In this document: piece after piece, positions 45,880-61,427 of the stretch
How the letters are laid out: each line of letters opens with the position of its first letter
Position numbering within the stretch: position 1 is the first letter of the stretch
The notes under the pieces: model-generated
The model's database searches: none
What the model was told of the DNA's origin: nothing
The model's input: only the letters and a program-made list of their open reading frames with translations
Assembly (NCBI RefSeq): GCF_028368935.1
Contig: NZ_JAQNDK010000001.1
Coordinates: forward strand, 1,736,001-1,800,000
Length of the DNA: 64,000 bases
Origin: Sorangium aterium
GTDB lineage: Bacteria > Myxococcota_A > Polyangia > Polyangiales > Polyangiaceae
Reading direction: 5' to 3'
Translations under genes and position numbers: made by a program

Positions 45880-45984
45880 GCTCTGGCGTGAATGGCAGAG
45901 GCCGGCGGGCCGCCGCGCAGCGGTCGATCGCAGGCCGAGCGCGTGGCAGACGTGGCGGCAGGAGCCGCCGCGGCCACGCCCAGG

Positions 45985-46116
45985 GCGACAAACGGGTTGA
46001 AACCGCCCGAATTGCGCAGAATTTCGAACCACCAAGACGCCATAAGACGCCAAGATATTTGTTTTATTTTTCGGCGCCTTGGCGTCTTATGGCGTCTTGG
46101 CGGTTCATCTCTCGCT
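45985..46116 (-). repeat. hairpin repeat element, copy 2
   Basis: Inverted copy of the element at 5459-5578. The hairpin arms (about 46023-46050 and 46077-46104) are nearly perfect over 28 bp and use CGCCATAAGACGCCAAG-type units. The tail GTTTCAACCCGTTTGTCGC appears reverse-complemented at 45985-46003. It lies between the convergent BON and lipoprotein genes. Confidence 0.75.
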
Positions 46117-46136
46117 AGAACAACGTGATCGTTGTT

Positions 46137-46691
46137 CTAGCCGCAGCCGCCTTCGGTGTCCTCGCCGCCGCCGGCGCCCCCGCCGCCTTCGTTGCCCCCG
46201 CTCCCGTCTCCCTCGTCACCGCAGCTGATCGCCCACAACCCGGTCGGTCCGTCGCAAGTGGCGCTCACCGTGCCACACTCGCGCTTATACCTGCACGGCC
46301 CCACGCTGTAATAGGCACTGCAGTCAGTTCCGTTCTCAGGCTCTATCGAGGGACATGCGGTGCAGTGCTCGACCCATACGCCGTCGGCGCAGGTGACGCT
46401 GCAGGGGGAGCAGGCGTAGTCGCAAAGCTCGCCCTCCTTTGCGCAGCGCGCTCCCGGCGGAGCGCCCCCTCCTGAGAAATCACACGCGACGGGGGTGTCG
46501 CCACCGGTCGATGCGCTGGACGACGTGGTCTCCTCGGGCGCGCCGCCGGTGCCGCTCGATACGCTGGAGGACAGGGGCTCGTCGGGCGTGCCGCCCCCCG
46601 AACCGGCGCCGGAAGGCTGCTCGACCGCGTCGGAGCAAGCGAACACAGGAAGGAGCGTGACGGGAATGAGCCACCGGATAAAGGTCTTCAT
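46137..46691 (-). CDS. small Cys-rich lipoprotein
   Basis: A 184-residue lipoprotein without a recognised family. Signal peptide and lipobox are LLPVFAC. Low-complexity Ser/Gly tethers flank a central Cys-rich module (about 70-155, roughly twelve Cys: CAKEGELCDYACSPCSVTC and so on), which is probably disulfide-stabilised. The C terminus is Gly/Glu-rich and ends in GGCG. GAGGGAG lies before the ATG at 46691. Divergent from the kelch protein gene. Confidence 0.75.
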   Translation of the reverse strand: MKTFIRWLIPVTLLPVFACSDAVEQPSGAGSGGGTPDEPLSSSVSSGTGGAPEETTSSSASTGGDTPVACDFSGGGAPPGARCAKEGELCDYACSPCSVTCADGVWVEHCTACPSIEPENGTDCSAYYSVGPCRYKRECGTVSATCDGPTGLWAISCGDEGDGSGGNEGGGGAGGGEDTEGGCG

Positions 46692-46969
46692 GCCGCTCCC
46701 TCAGCAACCGATGTGCCAGCGCAAATAGCGGTTTTCTGAGCGTGAAACGATGGAATGCGCCACGGTGAGCCGCACACTGCGCCGTCGGCGGCCCATGGCC
46801 ATGGCACACTCTGTACATCGACGCCGCGCATCCGACCACGCAGACGTGGAGAACGCGTCCTCGACGCCGCGCCCCGTAACGAGGTGCCCCGTGCGCCGGC
46901 CCTCGGCGCGCAGGACTCTGAATGCCCGCGCCACCGCGAGCAACGGACGGCGACGGAGGCCATCAGGAA

Positions 46970-49900
46970 ATGCGATCGATCGGAAGGCTAGGGAGCGCCG
47001 CTGCCTGCGGGTTCGTCATGCTGTGCGCGGGCGTCGCGTCGGCAGCCAGCGCGCCGTCCTGGGAGAGCGTGCCGCCGATGATCACCCCGCGGGGCGAGCA
47101 CACGGCCACGGTGCTCCAGGACGGCAGGGTGCTCGTCGCGGGTGGATACCCGGAGGTGGACGAACCGCCGTACACGACGAGCGGGGCGATGAGCCTCCAG
47201 GCGGTCGAGATCTATGACCCGGCGACCGGGTCATGGTCGCCCGCGGCGCCGCTCCTCCAGGCCCGCAGCGGACACGCGGCCGTCCTGCTGCCAGACGGCC
47301 ATGTCCTCGTGGCCGGCGGCAGGGCGAGGAACGCACAGGCGCAGGGCACATCCCTGTCTTCGACCGAGATCTACGACCCGTTGACCGACACCTGGACGCC
47401 CGCGGGGTCGTTGTCGATAGCCCACCCCGCGCCCTCGATGATGCTCGCCGGCGGCAGGCCGGTGCTCGTCGGGCTGGCCTGGCAAGACGTCTACGACGAG
47501 TTCGATGGCCAGTTCGTGCTGCACTATTACCAGAACGCAGCCATCTACGACCCGGCGTCGCGCGGCTGGACGGACCTTCCGCACTGCAATGCCGTGGACC
47601 GGTGGATGAGGCTGCCTTACAGGCCCCAGCCTGTGAGCGCGACCCTGCTCAACGACGGCCGCGTGATGGTGGCCGGAGGTGGCTGCAGCGTCTATGACCT
47701 GGAGACCCGGCTCTGGACCTGGGAGCAGGGCGCCGTGAAGCCGACGACCGAGTATGGGTATCCCGGCGCGACGACGCTGCCGGGCGGCGGGGTCCTGGTC
47801 GTCGGAGGCACCTTCCCCGCCAGCCTGGACCCGGAGAGTCACGCCTTCTCGCAGCTCTACCTGCCGCAGGACGACCGCTGGGAGTCGACCCCCGGGCCGT
47901 ATGCTCCGGCATCGAGCCCGTGCGGGTGGGACACCTCGAGTATCCAGGGGATGCGCACCTCGCTGCTCCCGAGCGGGAAGGTGCTGTTGACCGGAGGCGT
48001 GGAGCCATGCAGAGCCGTGGGTTCGACAGCGAACCTGGTCCCCTTCTATGCGACCCAGGCGCTCTTCGATGAGGCGACCGGCTCCTGGTCGAACCTCGAC
48101 CTGGCGCCGCCCGTGACCATGGCGCGGGCCTACCATTCCTCGACGCGGCTCAACGACGGCAGCGTCCTGATCGCCGGCGGCTACGTCGACGCCGCGACCG
48201 CCACGGCGTCTGCCGTGCTCTTCCGCGAGCGCTCGGCGCTCGGCGGGGCCTGCGACACCGACAGCGACTGCGGGAGCGGCTTCTGCGCGGACTCGGTCTG
48301 CTGCGACGCGGCCTGCGCCGGCCCCTGCGACGCCTGCGCGGCCGCCTCGGGCGCGTCGCAGGACGGCGTCTGCACCCCTCTCACGGGCGTCGCCTGCGAC
48401 GACGCGGACGCGTGCGTCGCCGGGGGTCTCTGCGAGGCGGGCGCATGCGTCGGCGGCGCGCCCGCGCCGGACGGGACGCCGTGCAGCGACGGCGACGTGT
48501 GCTCCGCGACGAGCGCTTGCGAGGGCGGGGCCTGCGTGGGGTCGACCCTCGCGGTGTGCCTGCCCGTCGATGACTGTCATGAAGCGCCTGTGTGCGACCC
48601 CGCGGCGGGGTGCGCGGCGCCCGCGTCCGCGAAGCCGGACGGTACGCCCTGCGACTTCGCCGGGTCCGCAGAGGGTTGGGAGGTGACGGGGCGGATGGGC
48701 GTCCTCCTCAACCTGCCTGCGGCCACGCTGCTCCAGGATGGGACGCTCCTCGTGATCGGCTTCGGCGAGACAGGGAATCCGCCGCGGGCGGGCGATGTCT
48801 GGCTCCGCTACGACCCGAGCACGGGCTCGTGGCAGCCCCCCGAGAAGTTGAACGCGGCGAGGCGCCCGATGAGGCTCGCATCGCTTCCGGACGGGAGGGC
48901 CCTGGGGATCGCCGATGGCCCGCTCCGGCGCCCCTCGCAGACGGTGCGATTCGACCCTGCGACGGGCGTCTGGTCGCCGGCCGCGCCCACCCTCGTGTCG
49001 CGCTATATGGCCGACGCGACGGTCACGCCGCTCGCAGACGGCCGGGTGCTCGTCGCCAGCGGCGACGGCAACGTCGACGGCGGCGGAGAAAAGGCCGAGA
49101 TCTACGACTCCGTCACCAACACGTGGACCCTGGCAGCGCCCATGAACGTTCCGCGAAGCCTCGCCACGGCGACGTTGCTGCAGGACGGCAGGGTCCTCGT
49201 CACGGGCGGAGACAGGCAATCCCAGGAGGTGAGCGCGGAGATCTACGACGCGGCGACCGACACGTGGACACGCGTCGCCTCGATGCAATGGATGCGGCGC
49301 CGTCACGCGGCAACGCTGCTTCTGGACGGCCGGGTGCTCGTCGTCGGGGGACGAGTAGGAGTCACCGGCGTCAACATGAAGACGGCCGAGATCTACGATC
49401 CGGCGAGCGACACGTGGACCTCGACCGGAGAGATGGTCGAGCCACGGGACTCCCCCCGCGCAGCGCTCCTCCCCGACGGCAGGGTCCTGGTGATGGGCCT
49501 CCCGTCCCCATCCAGAGCCAATGACGGTGCCTTCACGGCCGAGATCTACGATCCGGCGAGCGACACCTGGACGCTCGCGCCGGCGCTGGACGTGAGGGCT
49601 CAGAGCGCCGTGATGGAGCGGCTCCACGACGGCCGCATCCTGATCGCCGGCGGCAGTTCCGGGTATCAACGTCTCGACAATGCGTGGCTCTATGTCGCAG
49701 CGCAGCCTGCGTCGCCCGGGATGTGCCAGAGCGGCGCCTGCGTGCCGGGCGAAGGCGGGGGCGAGAGCGCTGGCGCGGGGGGCGGCAGCGACGGCGCCGG
49801 CGGCAGCACCACGGGCGAAGGCGGCGGGGCCGTGAGCGGCAGCGGCGGTGCAGGCGGCACGGCCGCGGGCGGGCACGGCGGCGGCGGCGATGCCAGCGGT

Positions 49901-50530
49901 GGTATCGGCGGCGGCGACAGCGGCGGCGGCAGCGGCAGCGGCAGCGACGCCAGCGGCAGCGGCGGCGACGCCAGCGGCGGTGTTGGTGGCAATCCGGACG
50001 GCGGCGGCGCCAGCGGCGGTGTTGGTGGCAATCCGGACGGCGGCGGCGACAGCGGCGGTGTTGGTGGCAATCCGGACGGCGGCGGCGCCAGCGGCGGTGT
50101 CGGTGGCAATCCGGACGGTGGCGATGCCAGCAGTGGCATCGGTGGCAATCCAAGCGCCGGCGGCGGCGATGCCAGCAGTGGCACCGGTGGCAATCCCGGC
50201 GGCGGAACCAGCGGCGGGGGCGACGGGGGCGCTGGCGGCGACGGGGGCGCTGGCGGCACGGCCATCGGCGGCCAGGGCGGTGACACCAGCCATCAAGGGG
50301 GCGCCACATCCACCACGACCGGCGCTGGCAGCGATGACACCACCACCACCGGCGCCAGCGCGCAAGGCACGCAGAGCAGCGGCGGCGGCGATCTCCCGAG
50401 CGCAGGAGGGGGCGGCGGCTGCAGCATGGCCAATGGTCCTCGGGAGGCACCGTCCTGGTTGCTCGCCCTCGCGGCGCTCGCCGCCACGCGGCTGCGTCGG
50501 CGCCTCGTAAGGCCCCGACGCACCGCCTGA
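46970..50530 (+). CDS. MYXO-CTERM kelch-repeat surface protein (1,186 aa)
   Basis: An exported kelch protein. The signal peptide ends near GVASAAS. Two kelch beta-propeller regions (about 35-415 and 560-905) are built from repeats such as HTATVLQDGRVLVAGG and AEIYDPASDTWT. They are separated by a Cys-rich spacer (about 425-560) like those in other myxobacterial surface proteins. A long Gly/Asn/Ser tail with 13-residue repeats (SGGVGGNPDGGGA) follows. The C terminus (GGCSMANG, a Pro-containing link, a hydrophobic helix, then an Arg cluster) fits the MYXO-CTERM sorting signal, which directs proteolytic processing and surface anchoring in myxobacteria. The ATG at 46970 has GGAGG 9 bp upstream. 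Binding partner unknown. Confidence 0.88.
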   Translation: MRSIGRLGSAAACGFVMLCAGVASAASAPSWESVPPMITPRGEHTATVLQDGRVLVAGGYPEVDEPPYTTSGAMSLQAVEIYDPATGSWSPAAPLLQARSGHAAVLLPDGHVLVAGGRARNAQAQGTSLSSTEIYDPLTDTWTPAGSLSIAHPAPSMMLAGGRPVLVGLAWQDVYDEFDGQFVLHYYQNAAIYDPASRGWTDLPHCNAVDRWMRLPYRPQPVSATLLNDGRVMVAGGGCSVYDLETRLWTWEQGAVKPTTEYGYPGATTLPGGGVLVVGGTFPASLDPESHAFSQLYLPQDDRWESTPGPYAPASSPCGWDTSSIQGMRTSLLPSGKVLLTGGVEPCRAVGSTANLVPFYATQALFDEATGSWSNLDLAPPVTMARAYHSSTRLNDGSVLIAGGYVDAATATASAVLFRERSALGGACDTDSDCGSGFCADSVCCDAACAGPCDACAAASGASQDGVCTPLTGVACDDADACVAGGLCEAGACVGGAPAPDGTPCSDGDVCSATSACEGGACVGSTLAVCLPVDDCHEAPVCDPAAGCAAPASAKPDGTPCDFAGSAEGWEVTGRMGVLLNLPAATLLQDGTLLVIGFGETGNPPRAGDVWLRYDPSTGSWQPPEKLNAARRPMRLASLPDGRALGIADGPLRRPSQTVRFDPATGVWSPAAPTLVSRYMADATVTPLADGRVLVASGDGNVDGGGEKAEIYDSVTNTWTLAAPMNVPRSLATATLLQDGRVLVTGGDRQSQEVSAEIYDAATDTWTRVASMQWMRRRHAATLLLDGRVLVVGGRVGVTGVNMKTAEIYDPASDTWTSTGEMVEPRDSPRAALLPDGRVLVMGLPSPSRANDGAFTAEIYDPASDTWTLAPALDVRAQSAVMERLHDGRILIAGGSSGYQRLDNAWLYVAAQPASPGMCQSGACVPGEGGGESAGAGGGSDGAGGSTTGEGGGAVSGSGGAGGTAAGGHGGGGDASGGIGGGDSGGGSGSGSDASGSGGDASGGVGGNPDGGGASGGVGGNPDGGGDSGGVGGNPDGGGASGGVGGNPDGGDASSGIGGNPSAGGGDASSGTGGNPGGGTSGGGDGGAGGDGGAGGTAIGGQGGDTSHQGGATSTTTGAGSDDTTTTGASAQGTQSSGGGDLPSAGGGGGCSMANGPREAPSWLLALAALAATRLRRRLVRPRRTA
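49973..50200 (+). repeat. 39-bp tandem repeats in the kelch gene tail
   Basis: Four nearly identical 39-bp units start at 49973, 50012, 50051 and 50090, followed by degenerate copies to about 50200. They encode SGGVGGNPDGGGA. Their in-frame length allows expansion or contraction of the surface tether. Confidence 0.85.
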
Positions 50531-50533
50531 GCT

Positions 50534-50569
50534 CTCGAGAGCACGTGTACAAATCAGCGTGCTCTCGAG
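50534..50569 (+). terminator. hairpin after the kelch gene
   Basis: Perfect 12-bp arms CTCGAGAGCACG / CGTGCTCTCGAG with a 12-bp loop, starting 4 bp after the stop codon. It lacks a T-tract but is well placed to end or stabilise the kelch transcript. Confidence 0.6.
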
Positions 50570-50817
50570 CCTCGAAAGCCAAGAAGCCCGCTGAGCCACC
50601 GGGCCGCCGCCGAAACGTCATGGCGTCCGGCGGCGCGCGCTCGTCGAGCCTCGCCAGCGCGGCAATGCAGCGACGACGCCCCGGCGCGCATTGCTGCCCC
50701 AGCAGCAGCCGGTGGTGATCCGCTGCTTCTGCACGAGCACAACCGGTGTCCGCCCAAAGCCGCCAGCACATGTTCAGCGCTTCACGCCGCCCGGGGTGAT
50801 CGCTTTAAGATAAGCGG

Positions 50818-52386
50818 ATGTCCAGCGAGCAACCCGAGCAAACCCTCCCCCTGCCCCGCGCCGAGAGCCGCGGGGCGAGCCGCATCCTCGACGCGCTGGA
50901 GCGCGCGGGCAACAAGCTGCCTGATCCGGCCGTGCTCTTCATCCTGCTGGCAGCGGTGGTCGTGGTCCTCTCCGCGGGGCTCGCCACGCTCCAGTTCAGC
51001 GAGATCGACCCGCGCACGAAGCAGCCGCTCGTGGTCCACAGCCAGCTCTCGGGCAAGGCGATCGCCGAGTTCCTCTCGACCATGGTGCAGACCTTCACGA
51101 GCTTCCCGCCGCTCGGCGTGGTGCTCGTGGCCCTGCTCGGGGTCGGCATCGCCGAGCGCTCGGGGTTCATCAACGCCGGCCTGAAGAAGGTCCTCGCGAT
51201 CACGCCGAGGGTGCTGCTCACGCCGATGCTGATCCTCGTGGCCATCGCGAGCCACACCGCAGCGGACGCGGGGTACGTGCTCGTCATCCCGCTCGGCGGC
51301 GTCATCTTCCAGGCCGCCGGCCGGCACCCGCTCGCGGGCATCTCCGCGGCGTTCGCGGGCGTGTCGGGCGGCTTCAGCGCGAACTTCATCCCGTCGAGCC
51401 TCGACCCGCTGCTGCAGGGCCTCACGCAGGCCGGCGCGAGCATCCTCGACCCGAAGCGCACCGTGAACCCGCTCTGCAACTGGTTCTTCTGCAGCGCCTC
51501 CTGCCTCGTGATCATCGCGGTCGGCTGGTACATCACCGACCGCGTGATCGAGCCGCGCGTCGCCCGGACGCCCGTGGACGCCGCGCCCGAGGCGGAGCAG
51601 CTCATGACGGCGGCGCTCGCGCCGCGCGAGGCGCGCGCGCTCTGGCTGGCCCTCGCGTCGATGGCGGCCGGCGTCGCGTTGCTCGTCGCGGCGAGCGCGC
51701 CGGCCTCCTCGCCGCTGCGCGCGGCGAGCGGGCAGCTCACGGTCAGCGGCGCGCCGCTGATGAGCGCGATCGTGCCGCTCATCTTCCTCTTCTTCCTCAT
51801 CCCAGGGCTCGTCTACGGCTACGCGGCCGGCACGTTCACGAGCCACCGCGACGTGATGGACGGCATGAGCAAGACGATGAGCACGATGGCGTATTACCTG
51901 GTCATGGCCTTCTTCGCCGCGCAGTTCATCTACCTCTTCAACCGCTCGAACCTCGGCGCGCTCCTCGCGCTGAAGGGCGCCGCGGCGCTGCAGGCGATGG
52001 CGCTCCCGAGCGCGGTGACCATCGTCGGCGTCATCCTGCTCACGGCGATCACCGACGTCCTCATCGGGTCCGCGTCGGCGAAATGGGCGCTGCTCGCCCC
52101 GATCCTCGTGCCCATGCTCATGTCGATCGGCATCTCGCCGGAGCTCACGCAGGCGGCGTACCGGATCGGGGACTCGACGACGAACATCGTCTCGCCGCTG
52201 ATGGTGTATTTCCCGCTCGTGGTGGTCTTCTGCCAGAAGTACGTGAAGGGCACGGGGATCGGCACGCTCGTCGCGCTGATGGTCCCCTACTCGGTGACCT
52301 TCCTCGTGGCGTGGACGCTGTTCCTCCTCGCCTACTGGCAGCTCGGCCTCCCGCTCGGGCTTGACGCGCCGTATGTCTACCCCTGA
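50818..52386 (+). CDS. abgT: AbgT family transporter
   Basis: A 522-residue inner-membrane transporter of the AbgT family (p-aminobenzoyl-glutamate importers; some members export sulfonamides). The family pattern is clear: NKLPDPAVLFILLA at the start, VGIAERSGFINAGLKK, ASHTAADAGYVLVIPLGG, the re-entrant FSANFIPSSLDPLLQG and TRIGDSTTNIVSPLMVYFP-like text near the C terminus. About eleven or twelve hydrophobic segments are present. The ATG at 50818 has no strong ribosome site. It is separated by 250 bp from the peptide/radical-SAM pair, so a shared operon is not demanded. Confidence 0.93.
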   Translation: MSSEQPEQTLPLPRAESRGASRILDALERAGNKLPDPAVLFILLAAVVVVLSAGLATLQFSEIDPRTKQPLVVHSQLSGKAIAEFLSTMVQTFTSFPPLGVVLVALLGVGIAERSGFINAGLKKVLAITPRVLLTPMLILVAIASHTAADAGYVLVIPLGGVIFQAAGRHPLAGISAAFAGVSGGFSANFIPSSLDPLLQGLTQAGASILDPKRTVNPLCNWFFCSASCLVIIAVGWYITDRVIEPRVARTPVDAAPEAEQLMTAALAPREARALWLALASMAAGVALLVAASAPASSPLRAASGQLTVSGAPLMSAIVPLIFLFFLIPGLVYGYAAGTFTSHRDVMDGMSKTMSTMAYYLVMAFFAAQFIYLFNRSNLGALLALKGAAALQAMALPSAVTIVGVILLTAITDVLIGSASAKWALLAPILVPMLMSIGISPELTQAAYRIGDSTTNIVSPLMVYFPLVVVFCQKYVKGTGIGTLVALMVPYSVTFLVAWTLFLLAYWQLGLPLGLDAPYVYP

Positions 52387-52481
52387 CGTACCCCTCCGGG
52401 GCGGCCGCCGCAAATAGCGCACCCGCTCGGCGGGTCGCACGAAGAGCCACGCGCTCGCGCGCGGGGCTGGGCTTGCCGGAG

Positions 52482-52505
52482 CCTCCCGCCAGCGTCGCCG
52501 GGAGG
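52482..52505 (+). terminator. hairpin between abgT and the peptide gene
   Basis: 7-bp arms CCTCCCG / CGGGAGG with a 10-bp loop, about 95 bp after the abgT stop and 130 bp before the peptide start. It is a weak terminator candidate separating the two units. Confidence 0.35.
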
Positions 52506-52638
52506 AACCGTTACACCTCGGAATCCAGACCGGCTCCCCGCTGCACCCCATTGCGAGCGCCTGCGAGTAGCACAAGCTTACCATGAGGCGCGCCCGCGCC
52601 CGATGGGCGTGCCGGGTGCAAGAGATCTGGAGTTGACG

Positions 52639-52890
52639 ATGAATAAGGACATGAATGAATCTTTGCACGTCGCGGCAGAGCCGTCTGGCGACGAATCCAA
52701 GGAGATCAACCTTGCTGCTCTGAACCCTGATCCGGAGCACATCCGGAAGATCGGGAAAGAGGCGGTAAAGTCCGCGATGCTGTCGGTCGCAGACCTGCGC
52801 GAGGGGCGGAGGCGCCACGACTCGCTCACCCTCAGCGAGTGGACTGACTTCGGCTCCGCGCCGAGGCCCGGCGTGCTGCCGGAGGGCTAG
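52639..52890 (+). CDS. putative RiPP precursor peptide (83 aa)
   Basis: Small hydrophilic peptide directly upstream of the radical SAM/SPASM gene. The ATG at 52639 has GGAG 6 bp upstream. A leader-like N-terminal part (NLAALNPDPEHIRKIGKEAV, residues about 24-43) has the helical, charged character of RiPP leaders. The C-terminal core is SLTLSEWTDFGSAPRPGV (about 62-79). It holds W68-T69-D70 and F71-G72-S73, two adjacent aromatic-x-x triplets of the kind crosslinked to three-residue cyclophanes in triceptides; F-x-S is the FxsA-type motif. There is no signal peptide and no cysteine. The precursor role is inferred from neighbourhood and motif, not from a database match. Confidence 0.68.
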   Translation: MNKDMNESLHVAAEPSGDESKEINLAALNPDPEHIRKIGKEAVKSAMLSVADLREGRRRHDSLTLSEWTDFGSAPRPGVLPEG

Positions 52891-52998
52891 CGAGGGCGTC
52901 GCTCCGAGGAGACATGCCCTCTCTGAGGCTGGGATCGGCGCGCGCCGCTGTCCGGCGCCCCCTTCCTCGCAACCCCACTCGTCATGGAGAGCGCCCGG

Positions 52999-54201
52999 AT
53001 GGCCCCCGTCGTGAGACTGCCTATCGCAACCGACCGATCTCACGCCGTGCCCATATCGACCTATGTGGTGAAGGTGGTGAGCCGCTGCAACCTCAACTGC
53101 AGCTATTGCTACATGTACAACCTGGCGGATCGGACCTACGTGTCCCAGCCCGCGGTGATGCGCGAGGACGTCACGACGGCGCTGTCGAAGCGCATCGTAT
53201 CGCACGTGGCCCGGCACGACATTCCGACCGTTCACGTCATCCTGCACGGCGGGGAGCCGCTCTTGCTCGGCAGACGCCGCCTCCGCGGGTGGGTCGAGCA
53301 GGTCAGGGGCGCGCTGGAGGAGGCCCACGTTCGCTCGCACTTCAGCGTCCAGACCAACGGTGTGCTGATCGATGACGAGTGGATCGATCTCCTCGCGGAT
53401 CTCTCCATCAACGTGGGCCTCAGCATCGACGGCCCGAAGCGCTTTCATGACCGCCACCGAGTGGACCACCAGGGCGCCGGGTCGTTCGACGACGTCGTGG
53501 CGGCCATCCGGCGCCTCCAGGCGCACCCGAGGGGGCCCAGGATCTTCGCGAACGTGCTCGCGGTGATCAACACGGACATCCCACCTCGGGAGATGTTCGA
53601 GCTGTGGCAGTTCCTCGACGTGCCGGGCATGGAGATCAACCTTCCGCACGCGAACCATGAAAATCGGCCGCCGACGGGGGCGATGCCGTACGGGGACTGG
53701 ATGATCGAGCTCTTCGACCTATGGTTCGAGCAGAATCGGCCCGATCGACACGTGCGGTATTTCGAGAACATCCTGCGCCTCTTGTTCGGGCATCCGATGA
53801 GCACCGACAACATCGGCGGAAGACCTGCAGGGGCGATCATCGTCGAGACGGACGGCGGCATCGAGCCGACCGACGCGTTCAAGTGCTGCGAGCACGGGCT
53901 CACGAAGCTGGGCATCAACGTGCTGCGCAACGAGCTCGACGACGCGCGTCGATCGTCGATCGTCCGCGCGATGCAGGGCGGCGTCACGGCGCTCTGCGCG
54001 ACGTGCCACGCCTGCGATCTGCGGGATGTGTGCGGAGGGGGCTACATGCCGCATCGCTTCAGCCGGGAGCGACGGTTCGACAACCCCTCCGTATACTGCG
54101 AGGACCTGCAGAAGCTCATTCGCCATATCCGCCAGCGCGTCATCGAGTCGCTGCCCCCCGAGATGATCGCGGTGGTCCGTCCGAGCGCGGTCCGTCCCTG
54201 A
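52999..54201 (+). CDS. FxsB-like radical SAM/SPASM peptide maturase
   Basis: A 400-residue radical SAM enzyme. The [4Fe-4S] motif is CNLNCSYCYMY (Cys30, Cys34, Cys37), and HGGEPLLLG supplies the SAM-binding GGE segment. The C-terminal SPASM region has CCEHG, CATCHACDLRDVCGGGY (about 333-349) and VYCEDL. VVKVVSRCNL, SVQTNGVLIDDEWIDLL, GLSIDGP and the HRFS/DNPSVYCEDL ending resemble FxsB-type cyclophane-forming maturases, which join an aromatic ring carbon to the beta-carbon of a residue two positions on. The preferred start is ATG 52999 with GGAGAG 7 bp before it; ATG 52984 is the alternative. It follows the peptide gene by about 110 bp, same strand. No dedicated protease or exporter is adjacent. 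Confidence 0.88.
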   Translation: MAPVVRLPIATDRSHAVPISTYVVKVVSRCNLNCSYCYMYNLADRTYVSQPAVMREDVTTALSKRIVSHVARHDIPTVHVILHGGEPLLLGRRRLRGWVEQVRGALEEAHVRSHFSVQTNGVLIDDEWIDLLADLSINVGLSIDGPKRFHDRHRVDHQGAGSFDDVVAAIRRLQAHPRGPRIFANVLAVINTDIPPREMFELWQFLDVPGMEINLPHANHENRPPTGAMPYGDWMIELFDLWFEQNRPDRHVRYFENILRLLFGHPMSTDNIGGRPAGAIIVETDGGIEPTDAFKCCEHGLTKLGINVLRNELDDARRSSIVRAMQGGVTALCATCHACDLRDVCGGGYMPHRFSRERRFDNPSVYCEDLQKLIRHIRQRVIESLPPEMIAVVRPSAVRP

Positions 54202-54309
54202 GGGGACAGATCCACGCCGGCGAGGTCCAGCCGCGTCCGGATCTGGCGTGCAAGGCAGGCCAGGGCCCGCTCGGCCACGATCAGAGAGAGCCCTGACGAA
54301 GGCGCTCGC

Positions 54310-55590
54310 TCACAAGAACTCGCTGCCAGGGACGGGTCCACGGGAGACGCGGAGGTAATTGATTGGCATATGATCGCCCAGCGAATAGCGAAGCAGGAGC
54401 GGTTCACGCAGGAAGGGAGGAACGAGCTTCTTCGCGAGCCATCCCACGGGTCCGAGGTCGGGGAGCAGGCCGCGAGGGGAGAACTGCTCACTGAGCCACG
54501 AAAGAGCGCTGCCGAGCATGGCGACCCCCCCGATGCGCACCTGGCCTGCGGTCGGCCCCCTGTTGCTGATCCAGCCTTCTATCGAAGAGATGTACTCCTG
54601 ACCGAAGTGCTCGAAGATCCCTGCCGAGCGCGGTGGCAAGTGCGGTATGATGTCTCGGGAATAGACGTGCCGGAAGAGCTTGTTCCCGAACTCTCCCTGA
54701 AACTTCGTGGCAAAAGCCTGGTCGCCGACCATCGGTTGGCCGAATGTGTAGATTCCGCGCAACAGCGGCCGCAGCTCACGGAGCTTCTCGTCCGAGTAGA
54801 TCAGCGCCGCCGCGAGGACGGCGAGCGCGCCGCCCAGGCTGTGGCCGGTGATGTAGAGCGCCTCCATCTTGAACCGGAGCGCGTCCTCGAGCGCCCCGAC
54901 CATGGACCGCAGTCTCTCCTTTTTGCGAGATTCGTCACCTTGCCTCAACAAACCCGACACCTCGTCACAGGACACACGGACATCCTCCATCGAGGGCTCC
55001 TGAGCGCAGCGCTTGCTTATCGCATCGCGCAGCGATGCTCCACAGATCGACTCACCGTTCTGGGCGGCGACAAGGTAATTTCTCACGCGTGACCATACCG
55101 ACAGGATGCCGTGATAAAAGCCTCCGTGCACACGTCCAGCGGCATAAAACGCCTCCGTCTTCATATTGATATTGGCCAACCAATTGGTCAGAGGCTGCAG
55201 CTGCGATCCACGAAAGACGAGGATTCCCACCCGCCCATCCCTGCTCAGGACGAAGTGCACGAGCGAATCCATGAGAAAACCCTGATTATTGAACGTGACC
55301 GTGACACAGACATTCGAGAATCCGCGACGCTCCAACATTCTGATGACTTCCTCGTTGTCCGAGTATGCCCATGCCGACGCGGAAGCGAGGAGAGATGAAG
55401 CGGTGTGGTCGTATGCGCCTGGACTCACGTTCACGAGGTCATCGACGAGGTCACCGGCCCTCAAGCGTGCCGCGGCAGCCGCCCACTGCTCCGGAAAGAG
55501 AGCGATTGCACGCTGAAGTGTCTCGGCGATCCGGATGTCGTCGGCGCTGCTCGATATGTCCTGATCTGGCCACAAATCCTTGTCTGCCAT
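54310..55590 (-). CDS. class 3 lipase family protein
   Basis: A 426-residue alpha/beta-hydrolase of the fungal-lipase-like (class 3) family. The nucleophile elbow is YITGHSLGGALA (Ser near residue 252), with GILVFRGSQ upstream, TFGQPMVGD downstream, and an Asp-x-x-Pro-His-type segment (SRDIIPHLPP). A His in GDHMPINY near the C terminus completes a plausible triad. No Sec signal is seen, so the enzyme may be cytoplasmic or exported another way. GGGGAG precedes the ATG at 55590. It is convergent with the radical SAM gene (108 bp apart), and its base composition is less G/C-rich than most of the window. Confidence 0.88.
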   Translation of the reverse strand: MADKDLWPDQDISSSADDIRIAETLQRAIALFPEQWAAAAARLRAGDLVDDLVNVSPGAYDHTASSLLASASAWAYSDNEEVIRMLERRGFSNVCVTVTFNNQGFLMDSLVHFVLSRDGRVGILVFRGSQLQPLTNWLANINMKTEAFYAAGRVHGGFYHGILSVWSRVRNYLVAAQNGESICGASLRDAISKRCAQEPSMEDVRVSCDEVSGLLRQGDESRKKERLRSMVGALEDALRFKMEALYITGHSLGGALAVLAAALIYSDEKLRELRPLLRGIYTFGQPMVGDQAFATKFQGEFGNKLFRHVYSRDIIPHLPPRSAGIFEHFGQEYISSIEGWISNRGPTAGQVRIGGVAMLGSALSWLSEQFSPRGLLPDLGPVGWLAKKLVPPFLREPLLLRYSLGDHMPINYLRVSRGPVPGSEFL

Positions 55591-56257
55591 GGCTCCCCTC
55601 GCTCCTCATCGCCATTCGGCCGGCGTTCGCTATGGAAGCTGCGGCGAGCACGCGCCTCCGGCCGGGACGCGCGTGCCGTCGCTCGGAGTCCGGTCGGCGT
55701 GAGCCGCACTTTTATCACCAGCGCTCATCGTGAGCTGGCTCGACGCGCAACGTAGTCTTCGCGCCGACGACGCGCCCCGCGCCCACCAACACCGGAGCGG
55801 GTCGACCCCACACCTCAAACTACCACCGCCTCCCCCCTCTGCAACCACCCGAGCGCGGCGGAGGCCTGCGAAGAGCCTGCCAGGACTTCCGACGAGAATG
55901 CGTGATTACCCAGGCCAGAAGATCGAGCGCCCTCGCAAGATATGGAGGAAAGAGAGACCAGAGCGATTCAAGGATACCGGGGTGGATCACCGCGCACGCC
56001 TCGGATCGCAAATCGCCCCCTTGGATCAAGCGGCTCCCTGACAGGGTGGCTTGGCCGCGTCTCCGAGCGTCGGCGCGGAGCGCAGCGCCCCCACGCTGCG
56101 CTCCGCGCGATCTGCGATCGAGCGCCCACCCAGGCAAGTCAAGTCTTTTCGGCGGCACGCTGGGCGGCCGAATTTGGCCCCATCTCTTCGCTCCTTGTGA
56201 TCCTATCGGAGAGGCCGGTCGCAGGCGCCGCATCCTGCGCCCAGCCCGCGTCTACCT
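55591..56257. other. intergenic region with a strong hairpin
   Basis: About 670 bp between the lipase and YqiJ-like gene starts (divergent). No credible coding sequence; translations in all frames are short or Arg/Ser-rich. The main structure is a long hairpin at 56073-56108. Base composition is mixed, with A/T-richer stretches at 55890-55990. Confidence 0.45.
56073..56108. repeat. 15-bp-stem GC-rich hairpin
   Basis: Perfect 15-bp arms (GCGCGGAGCGCAGCG and its reverse complement) around a 6-bp loop, 150 bp upstream of the YqiJ-like gene. No T-tract follows. Possible roles are a leader hairpin of the flotillin operon, a terminator, or a remnant of a mobile repeat. Confidence 0.65.
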
Positions 56258-57124
56258 ATGGCCGAGGTGCTCGCCGCGTCGCTCGCGTTCCCTGCCGTGA
56301 TCTTCACGGTCTTGCTCGCGCTCGCGCTCATCTACTGGCTGTTCGTCCTCCTGGGCGCGCTCGACCTCGACCTGCTCGGCGGCGCCCACGGCGACGCCGC
56401 GCCCGACCTGGGCGGGCTCGAAGGCGCCGCCAAGGGCGCGCTCGAAGGCGCCGCCAAGGGCGCGCTCGAGGGCGCCGCCAAGGGCGCCGCGGAGGGTCTG
56501 GCCGACGCGGCCGACGGAGCCGACGGCGCGCACGGCGTCGGCTCGCTGCTCGCGGCCCTGGAGCTTCACCGCGTGCCGGCGACCGTGACGCTCTCGCTGA
56601 TCGCGACGTTCGGCTGGTTCACGAGCGCCCTGTCGACGGTGCTCGTCGGGCCGCTCTGGCTCGGCTGGGGGTTGCCTGGCTGGACGCTCGGCCTCGCGGT
56701 GCTCGCGGGCTCGCTCGTCGCGGCCGTGCTCTTGACCTCGCTCGCGGTGCGGCCGCTCGGCCCGCTGTTCGTGACCCGGCACGCCCAGTCGAAGAAGGAT
56801 CTCGTGGGCCGCGTGTGCGTCATCTCCACCGGGCGCGTCGACGAGCGCTTCGGTCAGGCCACGATCGACGAGGGCGGGGCGAGCCACATCCTCGACGTCC
56901 GGTGCGACACGCCCGGCGCGCTCCGCCGGGGCGACCGCGCGCTGCTCGTGAGCTGGGACCCGGACCGAGAGGTCTTCGGCGTCGAGCCGCTCGACGCCCT
57001 CCTGGGCCCTCCCCCTCCCCTGGCCGAGCGGGGTGCGTCCGGCGTGGAAGCGCGCCCGGCCGGCGTCGAGGAGGACGACGCGCCCGCGGCGCGCGCAGCG
57101 GACGAGCGGCAGCGCCGCGGCTGA
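56258..57124 (+). CDS. YqiJ-like/NfeD-related membrane protein with OB-fold
   Basis: A 288-residue membrane protein. A first transmembrane helix (about 8-35) is followed by a linker with three GAAKGALE repeats (residues about 50-75), then two more helices (about 107-130 and 140-165), and a C-terminal OB-like beta domain (about 180-250; LVGRVCVISTGRVDERFGQA, ALLVSWDPDREVFGV). This resembles YqiJ/DUF1449 and NfeD proteins, which are encoded beside flotillins and are thought to act with them in membrane microdomains. The flotillin gene follows on the same strand after 234 bp. The end of the gene lies inside a 25-bp tandem repeat array. Confidence 0.82.
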   Translation: MAEVLAASLAFPAVIFTVLLALALIYWLFVLLGALDLDLLGGAHGDAAPDLGGLEGAAKGALEGAAKGALEGAAKGAAEGLADAADGADGAHGVGSLLAALELHRVPATVTLSLIATFGWFTSALSTVLVGPLWLGWGLPGWTLGLAVLAGSLVAAVLLTSLAVRPLGPLFVTRHAQSKKDLVGRVCVISTGRVDERFGQATIDEGGASHILDVRCDTPGALRRGDRALLVSWDPDREVFGVEPLDALLGPPPPLAERGASGVEARPAGVEEDDAPAARAADERQRRG

Positions 57125-57208
57125 ACGCCGGCGTGGGCGCCGCGGCTGAAACGCCGGCGTGGGCGCCGCGGCTGAACGCCGGCGTGAGCGCCGCGGCTGA
57201 ACGCCGCT
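57112..57208 (+). repeat. 25-bp tandem repeats spanning the stop codon of the YqiJ-like gene
   Basis: Nearly four copies of a 25-26 bp unit (GCCGCGGCTGAACGCCGGCG plus GGGC-type ends). The gene's TGA falls inside the first unit. Slippage here would alter the extreme C terminus or the spacing to the flotillin gene. Confidence 0.75.
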
Positions 57209-57358
57209 GTCGGGCAGGCGGTTTCGTGTACGCTCGTCCCCGAGGGGGCGTCATTCGGCCCCCGACCCGGCTCTGAGCGGGCCTGGACGACCGACCCTCA
57301 CCGACGTGAACGCGGGGGCCGGCGCCCTCCCCTCCACCGAAACGCGAAGGAGCTCCGC

Positions 57359-59572
57359 GTGCCCACTGTGACCGTCCCCTTAATCATCGTCCTCGTCGGC
57401 GTCCTCGCCTTCGTCGCCCTCGGGATGCTGGTGATGTACGCCAAGTTCTACCGCCAGGTGGATCAGGGCAAGGCGCTGATCATCAACACGAGAGGCCAGG
57501 ACCCCATCGTCACCTTCACGGGGACGCTGGTGCTGCCCATCATCCACCGCGCCGAGTACATGGATATCTCGGTCAAGACGATCGAGATCGACCGGCGCGG
57601 CAAGGAAGGCCTCATCTGCAAGGACAACATCCGCGCGGACATCAAGGTCACCTTCTTCGTGCAGGTGAACAAGACGCAGGACGACGTGCGCACGGTCGGG
57701 CGGACCATCGGCTGCGTCCGCGCGTCGAACCCGGAGACGCTCGAGCAGCTCTTCGCCGCGAAGTTCTCCGAGGCGCTCAAGACGGTCGGCAAGCGCTTGA
57801 ACTTCGAGGACCTCTACAAGGAGCGGCAGAAGTTCAAGGACGACATCATCGACGTCATCGGCAAGGACCTGAGCGGGTTCGTGCTGGCCGACGCGGCGAT
57901 CGACTACCTGGAGCAGACGCCCATCGACCTGCTCGACAAGGACAACATCATGGATGCCGAGGGCATCCGGAAGATCACCGAGCTCACGGTCGCGCAGAAC
58001 GTGCTGACGAACGAGCTCCGCCAGAAGGAGCGGATGGAGATCGGCAGCCAGAACCTGAACTCCGACGAGGCCATCTTCCGCTTCGATCAGCGCCGGGCCG
58101 AGGCCGAGGCGAAGAAGAACAAGGAGATCTCGGTGGCGCAGGCGCGCGAGCAGAACGAGGCCGCCCGCATCACGAGCGAGGAGCGGAAGAAGACGGTGCT
58201 CCTCCAGGAGAAGAACGACGAGGAGGCCTTCGTCGCCCGCGAGGCGAAGGAGCGCGGCGTCTCGGTCGCCCAGAAGAACAAGGAGCGGGAGGTCGCGGTC
58301 GAGACCGAGCGCGTCGAGAAGGCGCGTCAGCTCGAGATCGTGAGCCGCGAGCGCGACGTGATGCTCCAGCAGATCGCGCGCGAGAAGGAGATCGAGCTCC
58401 AGAAGAAGGACATCGCCGACGTGGTCCGGGCGAGGATCGTGGTCGACAAGACGGTGGCCGAGGAGGAGGAGCGCATCAAGGACGTGCGCGCGGTGGCCGA
58501 GGCGACGCGCCTCAAGGACGTGACGCGCATCAACGCGGAGGCCGAGGCGCAGGAGCAGCTCGTCAAGCAGCTCAAGGGCGCCGAGGCGAGCGAGGAGGCG
58601 GCGAAGTTCCGGGCGCGCGAGAGGCTCATCACGGCCGACGCCGAGCTCGAGGCGAGCGACAAGGCCGCGCGCGCGAAGATCCGCCTGGCCGAGGGCCTGC
58701 AGGCTGAGTCCGCGGCCGAGGGGCTGGCGCGCATCCGGGTGAAGGAGGCCGACGCGCAGGCGATCGAGAAGCAGGGGTTCGCCGAGGCCCGCGTCACGCT
58801 CGAGAAGATGAACGCCGCCGCCGCCGGCGAGGAGAAGCAGGGCCTCGCGCGGGTGATGGTCAAGGAGGCCGAGGCGATGGCGATCGAGAAGCAGGGGCGC
58901 GCCGAGGCGCTCGTCGCCAAGGAGCGGCTCCTCGCCGAGGCGGCGGGCATCGAGCAGAAGGGGCTCGCGGCCGCGCGGACGCGCGAGGCCGAGGCGCTCG
59001 CCCTGGAGAAGACGGGCCTCGCCGAGGCGACCGCGATCAAGCAGCGGCTCCTGGCCGAGGCGGCGGGCACCGCGGAGAAGGCGGCGGCGATGAAGGCGCT
59101 CGACGGCGTCGGGCGCGAGCACGAGGAGTTCCGCCTCCGGCTCGAGAAGGAGCGGGCGGTGGAGCTCGAGTCGCTGCGCATCCGGGCCGAGATCGCCAAG
59201 GCGCAGGCCGAGATCCTGCACGGGGCGTTCGAGCACGCGAAGATCAACATCGTCGGCGGCGACGGGGCGTTCTTCGATCGCTTCGTCAAGGCGGTCACCC
59301 TGGGCCAGTCGGTCGACGGGCTGGTCGACCAGAGCGCCACGGTGCGCGCCCTGGCCAGCGACTACCTGAACGGCAACGCGAGCGTCACGGAGGACCTGAA
59401 GCAGCTCGTCGCGCCCGGGGGAAAGCCCTCGGACGGCACGCTGTCGGGGATGCTGACGTCGCTCCTGCCGAGCGCCGACGCCGACGGGAAGAAGAAGATC
59501 GAGGCGCTGGCCCAGAAGGCGCGTGAGCTCGGCATCGACGAGCTCGTCAAGGCGCGCGGCCCGCGCGCCTGA
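57359..59572 (+). CDS. YqiK-like flotillin
   Basis: A 737-residue flotillin-family protein anchored in the inner membrane by an N-terminal helix (about 5-27). The SPFH/band-7 domain (about 35-200) includes DISVKTIEIDRRGKEGL and IRADIKVTFFVQVN. A very long charged coiled coil (about 220-640) with repeated AEA/KEAEA and IEKQG units follows, then a short C-terminal domain. Flotillins form oligomeric scaffolds in membrane microdomains. The GTG at 57359 has AAGGAG 6 bp upstream. With the YqiJ-like gene it forms the usual two-gene membrane-scaffold unit. Longer than classical flotillin-1 but within the YqiK range. Confidence 0.92.
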   Translation: MPTVTVPLIIVLVGVLAFVALGMLVMYAKFYRQVDQGKALIINTRGQDPIVTFTGTLVLPIIHRAEYMDISVKTIEIDRRGKEGLICKDNIRADIKVTFFVQVNKTQDDVRTVGRTIGCVRASNPETLEQLFAAKFSEALKTVGKRLNFEDLYKERQKFKDDIIDVIGKDLSGFVLADAAIDYLEQTPIDLLDKDNIMDAEGIRKITELTVAQNVLTNELRQKERMEIGSQNLNSDEAIFRFDQRRAEAEAKKNKEISVAQAREQNEAARITSEERKKTVLLQEKNDEEAFVAREAKERGVSVAQKNKEREVAVETERVEKARQLEIVSRERDVMLQQIAREKEIELQKKDIADVVRARIVVDKTVAEEEERIKDVRAVAEATRLKDVTRINAEAEAQEQLVKQLKGAEASEEAAKFRARERLITADAELEASDKAARAKIRLAEGLQAESAAEGLARIRVKEADAQAIEKQGFAEARVTLEKMNAAAAGEEKQGLARVMVKEAEAMAIEKQGRAEALVAKERLLAEAAGIEQKGLAAARTREAEALALEKTGLAEATAIKQRLLAEAAGTAEKAAAMKALDGVGREHEEFRLRLEKERAVELESLRIRAEIAKAQAEILHGAFEHAKINIVGGDGAFFDRFVKAVTLGQSVDGLVDQSATVRALASDYLNGNASVTEDLKQLVAPGGKPSDGTLSGMLTSLLPSADADGKKKIEALAQKARELGIDELVKARGPRA

Positions 59573-59724
59573 GCGGCGCTCTCCCGCTTCGGAGACGAGC
59601 CCACCTCGACGTCTTCCATGCTCGGCGCCTGAAGCGCGCCGTCGCTCTCATCCACGCCCCACCGAAGAACAGTTGCTCCCCAATCGCGCGCTTCACGCGC
59701 TCAGGGAAGGGCTCCCGATGTCTC

Positions 59725-61332
59725 CTACTCGGCGAGCAGGACGCCCGAGCGCGCGCAGAGAGCGAGCTCTTCATCCGTCGGGAACGAGAGGTTGTCCTGC
59801 TCGACCTTGATTGGTTGCCCGTTGGCCGTGAGCGATCGCAAGACGTCAGAAAATCGCTTCGCAGAACTGGCGACGAGGTGAAAGAAGGACTTTTGCCCGA
59901 GGACTGCCTTGGGGTGCCGCAGCACGAATCCCGGACCTTGGTAATAGGCGTGGCCGAACGTGTCGAGCTTCCGCTCGATCACCCCGCGAAGCTCCTCGAT
60001 CAGTCGCGCGGCGTCCTGCGGATCGAGGAACCCACCGAGGCACGCGTCCGTGCGCCAGCGCTCGTACTTCCAGTCGAGCGCGAGGCGCAGCAAGGTCGAC
60101 TCGAGATCCTCGCCGCCCGCCTCGATGTCGTAGCACATGTGATCTGTGATGTAGAATCGGCCTCTGGCGTCAACGCAGAGCTGATGGTCCAACCTCACCG
60201 TACCCACCCGATGCACCTGCTCCCCTTTGATTGACCCGACACGTTCGCGTTCGGGAGCCGTTTCGGCGATGAAGCCCGGCGCCACCAGAGGCTTGATATG
60301 GAAGAGAGCCCAGTAGGTCAGATCGTCCTCTGCGATAAGGCCACCATAGTCGCGCTCCAGCGCAGCGAGTACAGGCCAGAGGTCCGCGCCGTAGAGCTTT
60401 CGAAGGTGCTCCTCGGTCCGCCGGAAGCAGTCCACCCTCTGAATTCGCCGCGCTTCAAGGTATTCCTGCAGATCGGGGATCGGCTTGAAGAGCTCCACGA
60501 TCGGGCGCTTCCGCTGTACGAGGAGCTCGCCCTCACTCCACTCGGCCCACTCCGTCCCGATGTCGCCGTAGTGGAGGGCCTGCTCGATGCGCCGGTCTGC
60601 GGTGGCACATATCGATAATTCACCGATGCCGGTCTTCATATGATACTGAGGTTCTTCAGGCACCGGCTGGTACACTTCGACGAGAAGCGCGTCCGCGCGG
60701 CCATCGTGCAGGCCGATCTCGACACCCGTGGCCTCCGCCGCAGCGAGCAATGTCGGCAGATCGTCGAAGGACCGAGCGGCGATGCGGTCTTGCACGACAA
60801 ACCACTGATCGTCCGACCAGCAATGGTCGTGCGCAGAAGACGCGGCGAAGTTTTCGACGATACGGATCTTGTTGGCCAGCTTTCTGGCATCGTCGCGAGA
60901 GCGATCGTGGATTCGGAAGCCGTAGGCAGCCGGTACCGGGATGAGCTCCGCCGCGAGTCTCTCAAGAAAAATGCGCAGGCTCGCTCCCAGTCGCTGCTCG
61001 AATCTTCCGACGTAGACCGCGCCATCCCTGCTGGCAAGCACGACAGGCCGGCCGGACGCGTGTCGTGCGATCACGAGACCAGGAAGATCCGAGCGCCGCT
61101 GTCGAGGAGAACAGTCGAAGTCGGCAAGCACGCCGAAATCATCGTCGCCGAGAACGGGCAGCCCGCGACCACTCGTGAGCTGCAAGAGCAGCGCCGCAGC
61201 CTCGACCCACCGCGGAGTACAACCAGGAGGCGCCAGCTTAGCGAGCGCGCGCCGGTCGTGCGGTCGGCTGATGACCGCGGCTGCGCCGAGCTGCGAGAGG
61301 CCATCGGAGAGCTCCCGGTTGCCGCTCATCAT
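59725..61332 (-). CDS. hypothetical protein of the Rhs-associated operon, possible immunity or accessory protein
   Basis: A protein of about 535 residues without a confident family. It is cytoplasmic in character, with no signal or membrane helix. A segment LERDYGGLIAEDDL (in the middle third) resembles the F/L-E-x-x-Y-G-G-L core of SUKH/SMI1-KNR4 immunity folds, and RFYITDHMCYDIEAGGE follows. Start: adjacent ATGs at 61332/61329 just after GGGGAG; a GTG at 61371 is the alternative. It is the third gene of a minus-strand run behind the Rhs toxin tip, 95 bp after its neighbour, and is less G/C-rich than the rest of the window. An immunity function is inferred. Confidence 0.6.
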   Translation of the reverse strand: MMSGNRELSDGLSQLGAAAVISRPHDRRALAKLAPPGCTPRWVEAAALLLQLTSGRGLPVLGDDDFGVLADFDCSPRQRRSDLPGLVIARHASGRPVVLASRDGAVYVGRFEQRLGASLRIFLERLAAELIPVPAAYGFRIHDRSRDDARKLANKIRIVENFAASSAHDHCWSDDQWFVVQDRIAARSFDDLPTLLAAAEATGVEIGLHDGRADALLVEVYQPVPEEPQYHMKTGIGELSICATADRRIEQALHYGDIGTEWAEWSEGELLVQRKRPIVELFKPIPDLQEYLEARRIQRVDCFRRTEEHLRKLYGADLWPVLAALERDYGGLIAEDDLTYWALFHIKPLVAPGFIAETAPERERVGSIKGEQVHRVGTVRLDHQLCVDARGRFYITDHMCYDIEAGGEDLESTLLRLALDWKYERWRTDACLGGFLDPQDAARLIEELRGVIERKLDTFGHAYYQGPGFVLRHPKAVLGQKSFFHLVASSAKRFSDVLRSLTANGQPIKVEQDNLSFPTDEELALCARSGVLLAE

Positions 61333-61427
61333 CTCCCCACGCGCTGAAACTGGTTGTCCGTGATCTTCCACATGCCAACATCGTGGATGCCGCCTGGCCG
61401 CTGTGGCTGAGGCTCATGCACTTATCG

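Follow-up and report, generated by a model that had tools for sequence, protein, structure and literature searches.

Several radical SAM enzymes form crosslinks in precursor peptides, and those closest to the locus described here belong to the triceptide class. According to the accessible parts of PMC11002830, MscB (IPR026335) links Phe to the Cβ of Ser, OscB links Trp to the Cβ of Asn or Asp, and the HaaA/HaaB, XyeA/XyeB, and GrrM/OscB pairs share three-residue cyclophane chemistry. ChlB is termed a multiple cyclophane synthase in the title of a reference listed in PMC12636437, and DarE, another SPASM enzyme, forms an ether crosslink, as stated in the available portion of PMC9055067. FxSxx peptides and radical SAM-SPASM genes have also been placed inside ATPase conflict systems, with a proposed role as toxin or signal, in the accessible part of PMC7159879.

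The window analyzed here is a stretch of 64,000 nucleotides from a Sorangium genome of 13.5 Mb. In an initial annotation, made from the sequence alone, the locus was read as a triceptide-type pair consisting of a small peptide and an FxsB-like maturase. The precursor/maturase pair is real, conserved, and co-inherited, but the enzyme is not FxsB proper, as its profile score lies below the family cut-off and it falls in another clade. The triceptide class is already known, and the window locus would be a rare divergent branch of it. We consider it probable that the locus is a divergent triceptide-type RiPP cassette making two adjacent cyclophanes, and not a strict FxsB member. In a literature search covering titles and abstract openings, with some key triceptide papers outside its reach, neither a Sorangium triceptide nor the six-member enzyme clade, the W-x-D/F-x-S doublet, or the lipase cassette described below was found.

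Locus Organization

The features of the locus are listed in Table 1. A DNA comparison of window positions 45001-64000 with 20 kb around the copy in Sorangium strain So ce26, from which the block limits were taken, showed that similarity is confined to one shared block holding the precursor, the enzyme, and the convergent class-3 lipase. The So ce26 copy of the block lies at a non-homologous chromosomal place, and the GC content of the block is lower than that of the window (64.2% versus 70.6%). Of six Sorangium genomes, two contain the enzyme gene and four show no or only distant matches, and the peptide is distributed likewise. Each of the other five Sorangium genomes has the right-hand neighbor region of the window at another place, and four of them the AbgT transporter. 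Apparently, the precursor, enzyme, and lipase block is a small mobile gene set. Flanking repeats of the kind that mark a transposon were sought around the block and gave imperfect two-copy matches only; the locus showed neither a sigma-70 promoter-like nor a terminator-like site, and an Rfam scan yielded nothing at the gathering score. The block contains no protease or exporter gene, in keeping with the minimal gene set that had been annotated; the further statement that there are no partner genes is doubtful because the convergent lipase co-travels with the pair.

Table 1. Features of the locus, in window positions
Feature	Position	Strand	Basis or remark
Shared block, 3.4 kb	52516..55921	.	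78% DNA identity with So ce26; GC 0.642
Precursor peptide gene, 83 aa (leader + core DSLTLSEWTDFGSAPRPGVLPEG)	52639..52890 incl. stop	+	Frame 52639-52887, So ce26 comparison, leave-one-out profiles
Predicted core, adjacent triplets W68-T69-D70 + F71-G72-S73	52840..52857	+	
Radical SAM/SPASM maturase, FxsB/YhhB/ChlB group, 405 aa	52984..54201 incl. stop	+	Profiles, tree, model
Class-3 lipase (Lipase_3, motif GHSLGG), convergent; partner or passenger	54310..55590	-	Inside shared block

Precursor Peptide

The precursor frame carries its own ribosome site, as had been annotated, with GGAG six bases before the ATG, and its GC content by codon position is 0.64/0.45/0.81. Its stop codon is separated by 93 bases from the enzyme frame (52984-54198). 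The frame is not a chance one because So ce26 retains it at 70% identity, with an enzyme of 88% identity immediately downstream. A small frame also lies upstream of the enzyme in each of four further relatives (from a member of the Planctomycetia, Aureimonas, a Calothrix plasmid, and Roseibium), and a precursor beside the enzyme is thereby found in all six loci. With leave-one-out profiles, in which both Sorangium copies were left out of training when either was scored, all six precursors, including that of the window, outscored 1000 of 1000 of their own shuffles as whole peptides. The same result was obtained for the leaders alone, whose ends were set for the profile at a motif chosen within the six peptides themselves; the Calothrix leader has a narrow margin (7.5 bits versus 6.0 for its best shuffle). 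The common leader terminates in A-[VI]-[KR]-x-A-[LMI], and, as judged from these profiles, related leaders span four phyla in the six loci.

Comparison with So ce26 gives a dN/dS near 0.59 for the whole precursor (0.216/0.368) and 0.203/0.183 for the core, which points to weak purifying selection on the peptide or to a diversifying core. An NCBIfam search with the window peptide returned no family at E up to 1, and no match was found in plasmid records. No convincing additional precursor was detected in the genus: the best profile match beyond the two loci has an E-value of 0.51, and the single-sequence matches (E 0.011 to 0.19) all lie within frames of 312 to 1728 codons.

Core Triplets

The back-to-back arrangement of W68-T-D70 and F71-G-S73 had been annotated with the right coordinates and residue numbering. 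The cores of the relatives read FGA-FTS in So ce26, FST-FST-FST-FGS in Aureimonas, FST-FST-FST-FSS in Roseibium, and FSS-YPQ in Calothrix, where WTL-FSR follows two residues on. The exception is the Planctomycete core, which consists of five single FAS units nine residues apart. Aromatic-x-x triplets therefore occur in six of the six precursors and are back-to-back in five, so that the triplet register of the W-x-D/F-x-S region is kept in five of the six homologous loci. Across the six cores, pairs of aromatic residues are spaced by 3 (10 pairs), 6 (4), 9 (6), 5 (1), and 8 (2) positions, and never by 1, 2, 4, or 7. With So ce26 excluded, the nine pairs at spacing 3, six of which are contributed by the two repeat-rich Alphaproteobacterial peptides, were matched by none of 20000 shuffles, and the presence of such a pair in four of five precursors was reached by 234 of 20000. 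The window doublet alone is unremarkable (shuffle p 0.14), so the case rests on conservation.

Between the window and So ce26, residues 66-72 show five amino-acid changes and zero silent ones, whereas the preceding five residues are identical and so are 10 of the 11 that follow. The share of differing positions is 5/7 in this segment against 1/16 in the flanks (Fisher p 0.003, for a segment picked after viewing the alignment). The aromatic residue at position 68 (W or F), F71, and S73 are retained. We read this segment, chosen with the alignment in view, as a fast-changing core with putative fixed ring anchors. After FGS, the window peptide continues for ten residues and does not have an FxSxx-COOH end.

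Maturase

The enzyme contains the radical SAM motif C35xxxC39xxC42. The likelier start is the ATG at 52999 (400 aa) and not that at 52984 (405 aa), because GGAG precedes it and it agrees with the start of the So ce26 copy. The SPASM-type C terminus that had been annotated along with the CxxxCxxC motif is present, but it is assigned from the sequence to the reduced ChlB kind: in an alignment read by eye, C341, C344, C350, and C372 align with ChlB cysteines, and the cysteines that a sulfatase maturase has in its C-x-x-x-x-E-x-D-G and Y-P-C stretches have no counterpart. The CxxxCxxC motif and the clade-invariant C-terminal cysteines are retained in the window enzyme. Its dN of 0.064 against a dS of 0.258 was obtained from the comparison with So ce26. 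Identities to the window enzyme are 88% for So ce26, 68% for the Planctomycetia copy (L022), 58% for Aureimonas (L082), 55% for the Calothrix plasmid (L023), and 52% for Roseibium (L024).

Among NCBIfam profiles, YhhB scores highest (372.5 bits, cut-off 445), followed by FxsB (368.1, cut-off 370), and both stand far above XyeB (177.6), sulfatase maturase (171.5), DynA (135.1), GrrM (120.4), and DarE (79.7). The nearest solved structure by sequence is ChlB (E 2.2e-73). An AlphaFold model of the enzyme (pLDDT 89.6, pTM 0.87) superimposes on ChlB in complex with a ChlA mutant with a Z-score of 47.3 and an rmsd of 1.7 over 365 residues, compared to a Z-score of 35.2 with the sulfatase maturase anSME. 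In a tree of 50 rows, the enzyme falls in a six-member clade (support 100/98) drawn from Myxococcota, Planctomycetota, Cyanobacteria, and Alphaproteobacteria, which stands apart from FxsB/HaaB and from the YhhB/ChlB fusions. Two Gloeobacter proteins are its sister (99/96 for the eight), and inside the clade Sorangium pairs with the Planctomycete at weak support (86/20). Profile scores, fold, and tree position all place the enzyme in the cyclophane-maturase group.

Narrower identities were considered and set aside. The sulfatase maturase family (TIGR03942) has a cut-off of 349.45 bits and is separate in the tree, and the enzyme does not group with it. XyeB is ruled out by profile score and tree position, and DarE, DynA, and GrrM by profile scores. 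Strict FxsB (TIGR04269) is missed by 1.9 bits, and the enzyme lies outside the FxsB/HaaB clade; the FxsB cut-off is passed by the So ce26 (376.0) and Aureimonas (400.5) copies and missed by those from the Planctomycete (367.7), Calothrix (346.7), and Roseibium (341.8). MscB (IPR026335) is presumably a representative of this FxsB family (TIGR04269). Strict YhhB (NF041707) is rejected on its score and on the lack of a YhhA-type core. Weak PADLOC matches of the enzyme to viperin (pVip, E 4.5e-12) were taken to reflect the common radical SAM fold.

Comparison with Known Systems

The locus resembles the actinobacterial FxsA/FxsB systems in its profile score, within 2 bits of the cut-off, and in the F-x-S of its core, and peptides adjacent to FxsB also carry doublets (FNS-FIA in Nocardia, FSS-YVS repeats on a Streptomycetaceae plasmid). 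It differs from them in the separate enzyme clade, the absence of the FxSxx-COOH end, the first triplet W-x-D, and the lack of an HExxH, TPR, or TIR gene in the block. YhhA/YhhB and ChlA/ChlB provide the top profile and the top solved sequence and fold match, respectively; however, YhhB and ChlB are often fused to an aKG-HExxH domain, whereas the window enzyme (405 aa) has no fused domain, its peptide has neither of the triplets (Y-D-R, H-x-R) found in the examined YhhA peptides, and the two enzyme clades are separate. HaaA/HaaB, XyeA/XyeB, and GrrM/OscB are of the same class, whose chemistry is presumed for the window pair; XyeB and GrrM give the lower scores above, and the HaaB and XyeB rows lie elsewhere in the tree. 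Like the FxSxx modules of ATPase conflict systems, as far as these are set out in the accessible part of PMC7159879, the window pair combines a small variable precursor with a radical SAM-SPASM enzyme, but it has no adjoining zincin-like HExxH, AP-ATPase, or vWA gene and is accompanied by a lipase instead.

Some other loci encountered in the survey are of separate note. A Streptomycetaceae plasmid encodes, adjacent to an FxsB-family gene, a precursor (L200:1895-2239) that contains GFSS[YH] six times and may be a poly-cyclophane peptide. A GG-leader peptide of Chryseobacterium (L038), which ends 65 bases before a radical SAM match, contains W-S-N, W-P-N, and W-R-N and is a possible tandem Trp triceptide precursor. 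A Spirosoma plasmid peptide (L207:2298-2486) has WTE-YGG after a GG site, resembling the WTD-FGS of the window, and adjoins a radical SAM gene and a peptidase-domain ABC transporter. In Rhodococcus, a caspase-family gene (L199:4743-5795) lies beside a radical SAM/HExxH pair.

Neighboring Genes and Distribution

The lipase, convergent to the precursor and enzyme, is 63% identical between the window and So ce26. No lipase match was found in the non-Sorangium loci, and it is seen in two loci only. Weaker lipase paralogues exist in the same Sorangium genomes, and the lipase-peptide link therefore rests on co-location in two strains; the co-travelling lipase may serve the peptide. An aKG-HExxH hydroxylase gene adjoins the enzyme in Aureimonas and Roseibium. 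In the whole window genome, a search for aKG-HExxH (TIGR04267) gave no match at E 0.001, with a profile that brought none of the 14 control genomes over its cut-off and hence had no positive control.

The other clade members have diverse neighbors. Close to the Planctomycete copy, L022:3-2926 encodes the reverse transcriptase of a type XIII retron (553.5 bits) and a SWIM_XIII protein (438.3 bits). A NACHT ATPase with an NCH2 domain lies directly upstream of the Calothrix pair (L023:1706-4195), which is carried by a mobilizable 36-kb plasmid. Near the Roseibium pair are a type II DNA methyltransferase (208.6 bits; L024:1-1527), a serine recombinase, and an ATPase that has only sub-cut-off STAND-type matches in Pfam and none in PADLOC. 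None of the five frames around the Aureimonas pair, and neither of the cassette lipases, matched PADLOC. Beside the So ce26 block there is one weak PADLOC match, of a methyltransferase to mad2.

In the window, the frames nearest the pair are AbgT, the lipase, and two with no Pfam match; no vWA/MoxR/VMAP or AP-ATPase gene was recognized immediately beside it. Among six other window frames, the sole PADLOC match is a weak one (TerY, E 6.4e-5) of a distant vWA frame. This vWA-domain frame (E 2.5e-7) of 497 aa occupies 40169-41662, about 11 kb upstream of the cassette. The window also encodes a Kelch-repeat protein of 1202 aa (46922-50530), in which a long G-rich stretch of repeats (SGGVGGNPDGGG) lies close to the C terminus. 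A 548-aa frame (59725-61371) gives a SUKH-3 (immunity) match that stays below the threshold (E 0.00036).

Wider sampling was done with the enzymes, the query genome being counted in each case. With an E-value limit of 1e-40, 4 of 377 Myxococcota genomes had a match. At a limit of 1e-80, the numbers were 5 of 397 for the order-mates of Aureimonas, 1 of 392 for Planctomycetota, and 2 of 386 for Cyanobacteria, and at 1e-85, 1 of 367 for Alphaproteobacteria. Matches other than the query genomes fall outside the clade in the tree. A scan of viral contigs yielded 47 loci whose best segments are at most 33% identical, and 57 plasmid records match the enzyme at E 1e-15, with Calothrix at 55% and the rest at or below 42%; Calothrix is the sole clade member among the plasmid rows of the tree. 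When small ORFs in Bacteroidota loci were filtered for GG, precursor candidates emerged in a minority of these loci.

Discussion

In the proposed mechanism, the enzyme would bind the precursor leader at roughly residues 22-50, bond the W68 indole to the Cβ of D70, and bond the F71 phenyl to the Cβ of S73. The product would contain two adjacent three-residue cyclophanes, with a loss of 4.03 Da in all; the crosslinks would be made in some order, and later trimming could be performed by a housekeeping protease. Precedents for the two bond types are MscB (Phe to Ser) and OscB (Trp to Asn or Asp), as given in the accessible parts of PMC11002830.

A rather unlikely alternative is that a single ring is formed, most probably at F71-G-S73, and that W68-T-D70 serves as a recognition or spacer element. 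This would fit the position of F-x-S at the end of the array in the window, So ce26, Aureimonas, and Roseibium, its repetition in the Planctomycete core, the variability of the first triplet (WTD, FGA), and the separate naming of the known motifs, none of which is stated to be back-to-back in the accessible parts of PMC11002830. However, the first aromatic residue is retained through a W/F exchange while its neighbors change, the four-triplet arrays of Aureimonas and Roseibium suggest repeated action, and ChlB carries the title of a multiple cyclophane synthase (a reference title in PMC12636437). That the triplets receive another modification, such as an ether link, a Cα bond, or a Cβ hydroxyl, and not ring-to-Cβ carbon bonds, is very unlikely. 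DarE, with its ether crosslink (available portion of PMC9055067), provides a SPASM precedent, and two relatives have an added hydroxylase, but profile, tree, and fold all point to carbon-carbon cyclophane formers and the DarE score is low. It is highly improbable that the locus is decaying, with a peptide or enzyme that is non-functional in the window strain: the weak purifying selection on the peptide and the patchy presence in the genus would agree with decay, but the open frames have ribosome sites, the enzyme shows a dN far below its dS, and its CxxxCxxC motif and C-terminal cysteines are intact.

A different question is what the peptide does. It is somewhat unlikely that, instead of being a secreted natural product, it acts as the intracellular signal or toxin of a conflict (defense) cassette with the lipase as effector, a role that would be compatible with the ring chemistry. 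The block has neither exporter nor protease, FxSxx and radical SAM-SPASM genes are described within ATPase conflict systems (accessible part of PMC7159879), clade members lie near a retron reverse transcriptase with SWIM protein, a NACHT ATPase, and a type II DNA methyltransferase, a vWA-domain frame lies upstream in the window, and the lipase co-travels. Against this, the neighbors differ in every locus and may reflect defense islands only, the lipases do not match PADLOC and occur in two loci, and the remaining matches are few: the distant vWA frame in the window, the mad2 match beside the So ce26 block, nothing for the Aureimonas frames, and sub-cut-off Pfam matches for the Roseibium ATPase. 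A broader proposal, decidedly unlikely as a whole, is that the four-phylum maturase clade makes continuous ribbons in which cyclophanes adjoin one another, two of them in Sorangium and as many as four in Aureimonas and Roseibium, that these systems are encoded as small mobile cassettes of which some lie beside defense genes, and that the ribbon acts intracellularly as a conflict system with a swappable partner, the lipase in Sorangium and the hydroxylase in Alphaproteobacteria.

If the preferred reading of two adjacent cyclophanes is true, one enzyme and an 83-residue substrate would be enough to turn a W-x-D/F-x-S core into two neighboring strained rings, and the pair would be a very small system for studying site choice and ordering by such enzymes. 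The two Sorangium cores, with five differences in the ring region and flanks nearly intact, would represent a natural experiment in core tolerance. Moreover, with the lipase and with the retron, NACHT, and methyltransferase neighbors of the relatives, the role of triceptides in their hosts would become testable.
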